Assembly (NCBI RefSeq): GCF_000466965.1
Contig: NZ_BATB01000009.1
Coordinates: forward strand, 1-64,000
Reading direction: 5' to 3'
Origin: Limimaricola cinnabarinus LL-001
GTDB taxonomy: Bacteria > Pseudomonadota > Alphaproteobacteria > Rhodobacterales > Rhodobacteraceae
DNA: 64,000 nt
Of this stretch, positions 10,020-62,435 are shown in pieces (position 1 is the stretch's first letter; each line of letters starts with the position of its first letter). The notes below the pieces were generated by a model, which was not told the origin of the DNA, made no database searches, and was given only the letters and a program-made list of their open reading frames with translations. The position numbers were made by a program, and so were the translations under genes.

Positions 10020-10095
<76 letters not shown>

Positions 10096-26972: not shown

Positions 26973-28451
26973 ATGCTCGACGACCGCACCGACATCAAGT
27001 CACTGCTCAGCCGCCCCGACCTCGTTCGCGACCGCGCCTTTCTCGGCGGCAAGTGGGTCTCCGCGAAGGACGGCAAGACCTTCGACGTCACCAACCCCGC
27101 GCGCGGCGACGTTCTCGCCACGGTCGCCGATCTGGGCCGGGCCGAGATCGCGCAGGCGATCGACATCGCCCACAAGGCGCAAAAGCCCTGGGCCGCGAAA
27201 ACCGGCAAAGAGCGCGCCAAGATCCTGCGCCGCTGGTACGACCTGATGATGGAGCATCAGGAGGATCTGGCGATCCTGATGACCGCCGAGCAGGGCAAGC
27301 CGCTCGCCGAGAGCCGTGGCGAGGTGGCCTATGGCGCGAGCTTCGTCGAATGGTTCGGCGAAGAGGCCAAGCGCGTCTATGGCGAGACCATCCCCGGCCA
27401 CATGCCCGACAAGCGGATCACCGTGATCCGCCAGCCGATCGGCGTCGCCGCCGGGATCACGCCGTGGAACTTCCCCAACGCGATGATCGCGCGCAAGGTG
27501 GCCCCGGCGCTGGCGGCGGGCTGTTCCTTCGTGATCCGCCCCGCCTCGCTCACCCCGCTCTCGGCGCTCGCCATGGCTGTGCTGGCCGAGGAGGCGGGCG
27601 TGCCCGAGGGCGTGTTCTCGGTGGTCACCTCGACCTCCTCCTCCGAAGTGGGCAAGGAGTTCTGCGAGAACCCCAAGGTGCGCAAGCTGACCTTCACCGG
27701 CTCGACCGAGGTGGGCCGAACGCTGCTGCGGCAGGCCGCCGATCAGGTGATGAAATGCTCGATGGAGTTGGGCGGCAACGCCCCCTTCATCGTGTTCGAC
27801 GACGCCGATCTGGATGCGGCGGTCGAAGGCGCGATCCAGTGCAAGTTCCGCAACAACGGCCAGACCTGCGTCTGTGCCAACCGCATCTACGTGCAAAAGG
27901 GCGTCTATGACGAGTTCGCCAAGCGCCTGAAGGTCGCGGTCGAAAAGCTGCGTGTCGGCGACGGTCTCTCTGACGGCACCGATCTCGGACCGCTGATCGA
28001 GGCTTCGGCCATCGACAAGGTGCGCGATCACCTCAAGGACGCGCTCGATCACGGTGCGACGCTGCTCACCGGCGGCGAGGCGCATGACCTGGGCGGCCAG
28101 TTCTTCCAGCCCACCGTCGTCACCGGGGCGAAACAGGGCATGAAGGTCGCACATGAGGAGACATTCGGCCCCTTCGCGCCGCTCTTCGCCTTCAAGGACG
28201 AGGACGAGGTGATCGAGATGGCCAACGACACGATCTTCGGTCTCGCCTCGTATTTCTACGCCAAGGATCTGAGCCGCGTGACCAAGGTGGCCGAGGCGCT
28301 GGAATACGGCATCGTCGGGGTGAACACCGGCATCATCTCGACCGAGGTCGCGCCCTTTGGCGGGGTCAAGCAGTCGGGGCTGGGCCGCGAGGGGTCGCGC
28401 CACGGAATCGATGACTATCTCGAGATGAAATACATCTGCAGCTCGGTCTGA
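26973..28451 (+). CDS. gabD: NAD(P)-dependent succinate-semialdehyde dehydrogenase
   Basis: A 492-residue aldehyde dehydrogenase of the GabD class, oxidising succinate semialdehyde to succinate in the GABA shunt or related catabolism. Catalytic Glu265 (MELGGNAPF) and Cys299 (NNGQTCVCANR) are present; ITPWNFPNAMIARKVAPALAAGC and FTGSTEVGR are typical of SSADH. At the coenzyme site FVIRPAS carries Arg in place of the Lys seen in many ALDHs, a common GabD variant. GGAGG precedes the ATG. About 80 bases downstream begin the promoter and body of a candidate sRNA. Confidence 0.94.
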   Translation: MLDDRTDIKSLLSRPDLVRDRAFLGGKWVSAKDGKTFDVTNPARGDVLATVADLGRAEIAQAIDIAHKAQKPWAAKTGKERAKILRRWYDLMMEHQEDLAILMTAEQGKPLAESRGEVAYGASFVEWFGEEAKRVYGETIPGHMPDKRITVIRQPIGVAAGITPWNFPNAMIARKVAPALAAGCSFVIRPASLTPLSALAMAVLAEEAGVPEGVFSVVTSTSSSEVGKEFCENPKVRKLTFTGSTEVGRTLLRQAADQVMKCSMELGGNAPFIVFDDADLDAAVEGAIQCKFRNNGQTCVCANRIYVQKGVYDEFAKRLKVAVEKLRVGDGLSDGTDLGPLIEASAIDKVRDHLKDALDHGATLLTGGEAHDLGGQFFQPTVVTGAKQGMKVAHEETFGPFAPLFAFKDEDEVIEMANDTIFGLASYFYAKDLSRVTKVAEALEYGIVGVNTGIISTEVAPFGGVKQSGLGREGSRHGIDDYLEMKYICSSV

Positions 28452-28534
28452 CCCGGCTGCCTCGCGGCGGGGCGGCGTTCGGACGCGCCCGCCTTTCGGG
28501 CATCCACACCGCTTTGCCGCACGGATGCCCGGCC

Positions 28535-28563
28535 TTGGCGAAACAGCCCCGCTGCTTTAAGAT
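28535..28563 (+). promoter_or_regulatory. Sigma70-like promoter for candidate sRNA
   Basis: TTGGCG (28535-28540) and TAAGAT (28558-28563) are 17 bases apart, the ideal spacing for a housekeeping promoter. No protein gene starts downstream on this strand; the structured, terminator-ended segment 28570-28694 does. Confidence 0.5.
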
Positions 28564-28569
28564 GCCGTT

Positions 28570-28694
28570 ACGTCAATGTCGCAGTTCTCCGACATGATAC
28601 GAGACGACGCCCGATGCAGCCCCGTGGCGTCGGTTGACGAGTGGCCTTGGTAGCGCGTGGCGCGGAAGCCCTGCCCCGGGCTTCCGCGTTCTTT
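28570..28694 (+). ncRNA. Candidate small RNA in the gabD-DUF1285 intergenic region
   Basis: About 125 bases with three successive stem-loops: ATGTCG/CGACAT (28576-28595, extendable to 8 pairs with one A bulge), CGACGCC/GGCGTCG (28605-28632, perfect 7 pairs), and the terminator stem at 28661-28688 ending in TTCTTT. A properly spaced promoter precedes it, and no open frame of note lies inside. It does not match tmRNA, RNase P RNA, 6S or SRP RNA patterns that I can recognise. It may be a trans-acting sRNA or a processed gabD 3' UTR. Confidence 0.5.
28661..28694 (+). terminator. Intrinsic terminator
   Basis: CGCGGAAGCCC pairs with GGGCTTCCGCG (11 bp) around a TGCCCC loop and is followed by TTCTTT. 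The T-rich tail is on the plus strand, so it ends rightward transcription from gabD and/or the candidate sRNA. It abuts the 3' end of the convergent DUF1285 gene. Confidence 0.8.
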
Positions 28695-29280
28695 ACGGAA
28701 GTTCGGCTGCCGGGATGATCGGAAAGAACACGTCGTTCGACCGCACGCCGAACCAGTCTTCATCCTCATGCGGCGCGGTTTCGCCAAGCTCCACCAGCCG
28801 GTAGAAGCTCTTGCGGTCGATCAGCGCCTCCAACCCCGAACGGATCTCGATATAGGGCGACGGCTCGCCCGTTTCGGGATCGCGGATCACCCGGATCGGA
28901 TGCTCCGGGCCCGCCATCGCCGTTTCGTCCAAATTGGTGGTAAAGCGCAGCCCCTCCCCGTCCCGCGCGACATCGACCGCGACAAAGGGCGCGTCGTCAA
29001 CGGTGATGCCGACCTTCTCGACCGGGGTGACGAGGTAATGCCTGTCGCCCTCGCGCTTGAGAATCGAGGCGAAGAGCTTGACCATCCGCTCGCGACCGAT
29101 CGGTGTGCCCTCGTGGAACCATGTCCCGTCGCGCGCGATCCGCATGTCGAGATCACCGCAAAAGGGCGGATCCCACAGATGCACCGGCGCGGGGCCCCGC
29201 GCACCCGCCCGGCTTGCCGCCGATGCGAGGCTTTCCGCCGAAGGGGCGGCGGTCGTCTCACTGTTCTTTGTGTTTGCCAT
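28693..29280 (-). CDS. DUF1285 domain-containing protein
   Basis: A 195-residue soluble protein with the DUF1285 pattern: PVHLWDPPFCGDLDMRIARDGTWFHEGTPIGRERMVKLFASILKRE, then YLVTPVEKVGITVDDAPFVAVDV and a C-terminal DRKSFYRLVELG. Function is not established. The ATG at 29280 is preferred over a start at 29313. Divergent from the moxR-like operon, 59 bases away; a link to that operon is possible but unproven. Confidence 0.92.
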   Translation of the reverse strand: MANTKNSETTAAPSAESLASAASRAGARGPAPVHLWDPPFCGDLDMRIARDGTWFHEGTPIGRERMVKLFASILKREGDRHYLVTPVEKVGITVDDAPFVAVDVARDGEGLRFTTNLDETAMAGPEHPIRVIRDPETGEPSPYIEIRSGLEALIDRKSFYRLVELGETAPHEDEDWFGVRSNDVFFPIIPAAELP

Positions 29281-29339
29281 CGGAACCCGCCACGGTATCT
29301 GCTGAGACTGCAATGCTAGACTAGGACGGGAAGGCTGTC

Positions 29340-62200: not shown

Positions 62201-62368
62201 GCGGCTCTCCTCGGGGATGGGGCTCCCTTCTAGGACGCATCGCCGCCGGGTCCAAGCGGCTCGCACCTCTTGACCGGCGCGTCGATCCGCCGTAATTGCG
62301 ACCCCCAAACCCGGAAGCTCTCGCTTTCCGGTCCCCGGCCCATATCGGGGATCGCCGTCCGTCAGCGC

Positions 62369-62390
62369 GTTGCGCCCACGGGCGCGCAAC
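62369..62390 (+). other. Hairpin in the ffh 5' leader
   Basis: GTTGCGC and GCGCAAC are inverted around eight bases in the presumed leader, 46 bases upstream of the ffh start. It may affect message stability or translation; no known riboswitch match. Confidence 0.35.
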
Positions 62391-62435
62391 CGCATGGGGC
62401 CAAGGGGACTGACGCAACGGTCGGAAAGGACCGCC

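Follow-up and report, generated by a model that had tools for sequence, protein, structure and literature searches.

A candidate small RNA gene between gabD and a convergent DUF1285 gene in Limimaricola

Introduction

In promoters with a PhoB-like activation layout, an 11-bp direct repeat stands in place of the −35 element and is followed by a −10 element. Pho box promoters carry TGTC in each half of this 11-bp repeat, with the −10 about 10 bases further on. The small RNA (sRNA) ChvR of Caulobacter crescentus is switched on by the response regulator ChvI and acts on one mRNA; the ChvI motif is TTGC-N3-GCAA, and the Sinorhizobium meliloti ChvI consensus is GCC-N8-GCC, as given in the portions of the published account used here (PMC9731502). 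CenR sites of Rhodobacter sphaeroides have the form TGA-N8-TGA and lie upstream of the −35 at activated promoters, according to the part of the report drawn on here (PMC9275681).

The locus described below, in the marine genus Limimaricola, carries an 11-bp direct repeat directly before a conserved core. In the excerpts cited, the S. meliloti ChvI consensus has the same 11-base period as this repeat but different letters, and the likeness to CenR consists of a direct-repeat site, an OmpR-family regulator (putative here) and a related alphaproteobacterium, while the motif differs. Neither the ChvI nor the CenR motif, in the form given in those excerpts, fits the repeat in letters.

We analyzed a 64,000-nucleotide stretch of DNA from Limimaricola cinnabarinus LL-001 (hereafter the window), together with seven further Limimaricola genomes. 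A literature search for small RNA in Limimaricola found none. We put at about 0.5 the probability that the locus is a single-copy, intergenic Limimaricola sRNA gene of about 90 bases, activated by an OmpR/PhoB-type regulator at the 11-bp repeat. Such a candidate offers a testable prediction of start, end and promoter, and a case in which the retention and loss of the parts of a young sRNA can be followed across eight species.

Results

The gap under study (28452-28692) lies between gabD, which encodes succinate-semialdehyde dehydrogenase (26973-28451, + strand; TIGR01780 at 712.7 bits against a cut-off of 646.35; PF00171), and a convergent DUF1285 gene (28693-29313, − strand; PF06938 and PF21028), the bounds of the latter being those of the open reading frame as listed and its start codon provisional. 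A moxR-like reading frame (PF07726) follows from 29340 on the + strand. The order gabD-core-DUF1285-moxR was found in all eight Limimaricola genomes. The proposed sRNA, of about 90 bases, occupies 28605-28694 on the + strand, with a start that is predicted to within 3 bases, and includes the core conserved in this gap in Limimaricola.

The core begins approximately 150 bases past the gabD stop codon on the same strand and is preceded by gabD in 8/8 genomes, which is also what would be expected of a 3' UTR element of gabD, i.e., of a core and hairpin that form part of gabD read-through RNA, either processed from it or acting as its final terminator. We hold this reading to be unlikely, given that hairpins of at least eight pairs separate gabD from the core in six of the eight genomes, including a 20-bp stem in G003, and that a 3' UTR would not be expected to have the repeat and −10 immediately upstream of the core. 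The G003 hairpin (locus L026, reverse strand) is GC-rich, lies 38-82 bases upstream of the core and is perhaps a strong gabD terminator. When the gabD-side hairpins were included (28452-28700), the fold was clearly more stable than those of shuffled sequences (z −3.08; 0/200 as good), whereas a 136-base fold was mildly so (z −1.91; 9/200 as good).

Alignment of the core (seven sequences, 95 columns) revealed three invariant or nearly invariant elements, i.e., GACG...GCGTC, ACGAGT and GTGGCGCGGA. The first belongs to stem-loop 1 (28605-28632, + strand), in which GACGCC pairs with GGCGTC, with one additional closing pair, around a C-rich loop; 97.6% of the cells in the alignment are paired and four of the six scored pairs are invariant. 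The linker ACGAGT (28637-28642, + strand) is present in all eight genomes and is unpaired in the structure that was scored for covariation, with RNAalifold pairing part of it weakly. Identity to the window across stem-loop and linker was 92% in G007 and G006, 87% in G003 and G001, 81% in G004, 72% in G002 and 73% in G005, as compared with 62, 61, 53, 59, 45, 50 and 56%, respectively, between 150 and 42 bases upstream of the core. In 5/7 comparisons it was higher than the identity at fourfold sites in the genes on either side, and it was lower in G002 (72 versus 75%) and G005 (73 versus 75%), the two genomes in which the core has drifted and the loop differs.

Downstream of the linker, an 11-bp hairpin (28661-28671 with 28678-28688) and its tail TTCTTT make up a terminator-like element (28661-28694, + strand). 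All of its scored cells are paired in the seven sequences, and three of its pairs are compensated, i.e., changed on both sides. An earlier note on this DNA had described it as an intrinsic terminator of 11 bp, and the hairpin is kept in seven of the eight genomes; a search of all eight failed to find it in G005, and a terminator scan of the sequence did not list the 28661-28688 hairpin. The T-rich tail is restricted to the window's genome and poor in the relatives, so it is the structure rather than the tail that argues for a terminator belonging to the RNA.

The earlier note had looked to the stem at 28605-28632 for covariation. None of its six scored pairs changed on both sides; the covariation sits in the terminator hairpin instead. 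For the whole structure, comprising both helices, 99.2% of cells pair, as against at most 47.8% in slid versions, and the number of pairs changed on both sides was reached by shuffles in 9/500 cases. One of the five covariation measures, the count of further pair types, was no better than in shuffles (reached in 442/500). With no two-sided change in any pair of stem 1, the conservation there speaks for a sequence constraint without proving a helix; single-sequence folds of the core form it in six of the eight genomes, and it is absent from those of G004 and G005.

A protein-binding inverted repeat could likewise be constrained as sequence, and convergent genes can share a hairpin, here the best-kept structure of the locus. 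The region might therefore be a shared terminator or end region of the two convergent genes, together with conserved DNA sites, without giving rise to a separate RNA. This reading appears improbable to us: it leaves unexplained the conserved ACGAGT and loop, as well as the promoter-like layout pointing into the core, and the hairpin lacks a T tail on its minus-strand side. The DUF1285 stop codon overlaps the tail of the hairpin, so that the proposed RNA would reach this codon with its 3' end, and in G005, which has no hairpin, a transcript could run on into the DUF1285 gene. Both points suit an antisense RNA against the 3' end of the DUF1285 mRNA, which we nevertheless judge very improbable, as the terminator would stop the RNA at the stop codon and the overlap does not include the conserved core.

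Upstream of the core, at a distance of 5 to 7 bases, a hexamer resembling YANNNT stands in 8/8 genomes, with TAGAAC of G001 fitting least; in the window this is CATGAT (28593-28598, + strand), the proposed −10. A TGTCGC-like box precedes the hexamer by 10 bases in seven genomes, G004 having the hexamer without the box. Among the five more distant species, four show clearly that the box forms the downstream half of an 11-bp direct repeat. In the window, this putative OmpR/PhoB-type activator site spans 28566-28582 (+ strand), with a degenerate half-site CGTTAC (28566-28571) and TGTCGC (28577-28582). The window's own copy of the repeat is weak, with half-sites agreeing at 3/6 positions, and G004 has none. 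Taken together, the box and −10 layout points to a start near 28605 and an RNA of about 90 bases.

Self-matches at a lag of 11 numbered, out of 6, three in G000 (the window's genome), four in G007, five in G003, six in G001, two in G004 and five each in G002 and G005, i.e., 30/42 over seven genomes; of the other lags from 6 to 20, the best reached 19. With G006 and G007, close relatives of G000, left aside, the total was 26/36 over six genomes, whereas 20,000 base shuffles of the 26 upstream bases gave at most 22. This comparison overstates the case, since the genomes are related and both box and −10 hexamers were picked out by eye once the sequences had been seen. In the two closest genomes, the 42-base block ahead of the core shares 86 and 81% identity with the window. 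In G003, G001, G004, G002 and G005, the corresponding values are 57, 60, 50, 47 and 61%, against 53, 59, 45, 50 and 56% further up. Thus, in these five distant genomes only the box, the spacing and the −10 are common upstream of the core, and the block as a whole is hardly more alike than its surroundings.

As a motif, TGTCGC-N5-TGTCGC is not special in the window, with 18 matches at up to two mismatches where 15.0 were expected. At up to one mismatch, it matched 64 times in the window's own genome, as against 35 for the reversed control, and the window's site is not among these matches. Combined with the −10, the repeat pattern gave 10 matches in the eight genomes (reversed control, 5), four of them at the sRNA locus (G001, G002, G003 and G005) and none at the window's own locus; as the pattern was read from the same sequences, these counts speak to its specificity and are not independent proof. 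The form TGTCAC-N5-TGTCAC-N10-YANNNT, allowing one mismatch, was absent from the sRNA locus in 8/8 genomes, and its two matches both lie elsewhere in G003; this search covers near-exact Pho boxes rather than degenerate ones.

A different promoter had been proposed in the earlier note, namely TTGGCG (28535-28540) and TAAGAT (28558-28563) separated by 17 bases. These motifs, the two hairpins and the terminator hairpin that it listed are all present in the sequence. As a promoter, however, the pair is a chance-grade match at 8/12 consensus positions, a grade reached by 33 sites on both strands of the 64-kb window (0.26 per kb per strand), and it did not appear in a stricter scan at 9/12. Nor is it kept in relatives: TTAGCG and CACATT stand at these places in the two nearest, and the others do not align there. 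Of the two perfect hairpins that had been reported, the one at 28605-28632 is conserved, whereas the more distant relatives do not preserve that at 28576-28595, a perfect 6-bp inverted repeat (ATGTCG/CGACAT); we read the latter as probably falling within promoter DNA.

Six-frame translations of 120 bases from the eight genomes yielded no conserved reading frame on either strand. The window does hold a 19-codon frame (ATG at 28594, stop TAG at 28651-28653), which might be taken for a short translated ORF. In the relatives this frame is broken by gaps of varying length, by stops or by a missing ATG, and we give a reading so contradicted by the alignment next to no credence.

The lack of a match to any known RNA family, also noted earlier, was borne out with the Rfam 15 covariance models, none of which matched the region at gathering score; a permissive setting gave only two matches (E 2.9 and 3.9), which we read as chance. 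Elsewhere in the window, the Rfam models identified an RNA of the ffh sRNA family (RF01793) at 62341-62392 on the + strand (61 bits; cut-off 35) and a tRNA gene (RF00005) at 10023-10095 on the − strand. DNA similarity alone finds the core in six of the eight Limimaricola genomes, the window's own included, and in G002 and G005 it was located by position and by eye. A covariance model of the core had a single match in the window's genome, at 102.1 bits, although that sequence had been used in building the model. The G005 locus, which was left out of the model, ranked first among 19 loci, with 21.1 bits (E 9e-4) against 15.4 bits (E 0.027) for the runner-up.

A search of 394 genomes of the family, nearly one per genus and with stricter filters, gave matches in four, of which two had gone into the model (the window's own genome and a second Limimaricola) and two had not (G149 and G350). 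The latter two (E 7.6e-4 and 0.00138, E being per genome) were taken as chance at 394 genomes; the G350 match lies inside a reading frame, and gabD and DUF1285 were not found in the 3-kb loci of either. The weak G149 match (L023, 1501-1577), in another genus, has a GC-rich hairpin and ACGAG words, and may be either a distant relative or a chance hit. When 84,980 species were scanned with a sequence pattern, a procedure blind to forms as divergent as that of G005, 14 records came back: six from Limimaricola, all at the sRNA locus, and eight unrelated ones, with neither gabD nor DUF1285 found in the stretches retrieved. Neither the 394 family genomes nor the 84,980-species scan thus held a convincing copy outside Limimaricola.

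Among 22 loci from other genera (approximately 1.5 kb either side of DUF1285), gabD was present only in G013, about 1.3 kb away, which makes the core-holding gap particular to Limimaricola in this sample. In G013, gabD is followed by a hairpin of its own and then by an intervening gene whose translation resembles a GAF-domain histidine kinase. It is possible that the core-holding gap arose by loss of such an intervening gene.

The complement of the loop, CACGGGGCTGCA, was used as a target search and gave 12 matches in the eight genomes, three of them the core itself, with no target found. Among the other nine, four mutually orthologous matches were rejected as a target, as they lie in apparent coding sequence, which we take to be glycogen-synthase-like, and two of the four genomes have no matching loop.

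Discussion

The conserved core, the terminator hairpin, the promoter-like box and −10 directly upstream, and the lack of a conserved frame or of an Rfam match make an sRNA the best reading of the locus. The gap between gabD and DUF1285 probably holds a real, young, single-copy sRNA gene. The independent sRNA of the earlier note is thus probably right as to the gene, but not as to its promoter or its extent, for which we favor about 90 bases rather than 125 and a start near 28605 rather than 28570.

From the sequence features, we infer the following course of events. An OmpR/PhoB-type response regulator would bind the 11-bp direct repeat, which takes the position of a −35 element, and recruit RNA polymerase to the −10 at 28593-28598, giving a transcript of about 90 bases that would start near 28605 and end at the hairpin at 28661-28688. 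The RNA may then act in trans, its C-rich loop and/or its ACGAGU linker pairing with mRNAs. A fuller account, in which a genus-restricted RNA under a TGTCGC-repeat response regulator was born recently in the gap after a gene between gabD and DUF1285 had been lost, is tentative, and we place it on the unlikely side.

The OmpR-type DNA-binding domain has 10 matches in the window's genome, nine of them above cut-off. Upstream of the frames taken at these loci, several of which were not the regulator gene, no convincing TGTCGC repeat was found. A different repeat, GTTAGCGCAAC, occurs twice at 21-base spacing before a ChvI-like regulator gene (L122). At L127, a perfect direct repeat, TGTCAT-N5-TGTCAT, lies upstream of the ATG of an OmpR-type regulator and is possibly a self-regulation site.

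With respect to known systems, the candidate would resemble ChvR, as far as the cited part of that work describes it, in working as an alphaproteobacterial sRNA activated by a response regulator, a likeness in mode of action. In layout it resembles Pho box promoters, which have the same 11-bp direct repeat with TGTC halves and the same −10 spacing as the sRNA locus. The letters differ between the two within one genome: upstream of pstS, TGTCAT and TGTCAC stand in AT-rich surroundings, likely as a Pho box, whereas the sRNA locus has TGTCGC instead.
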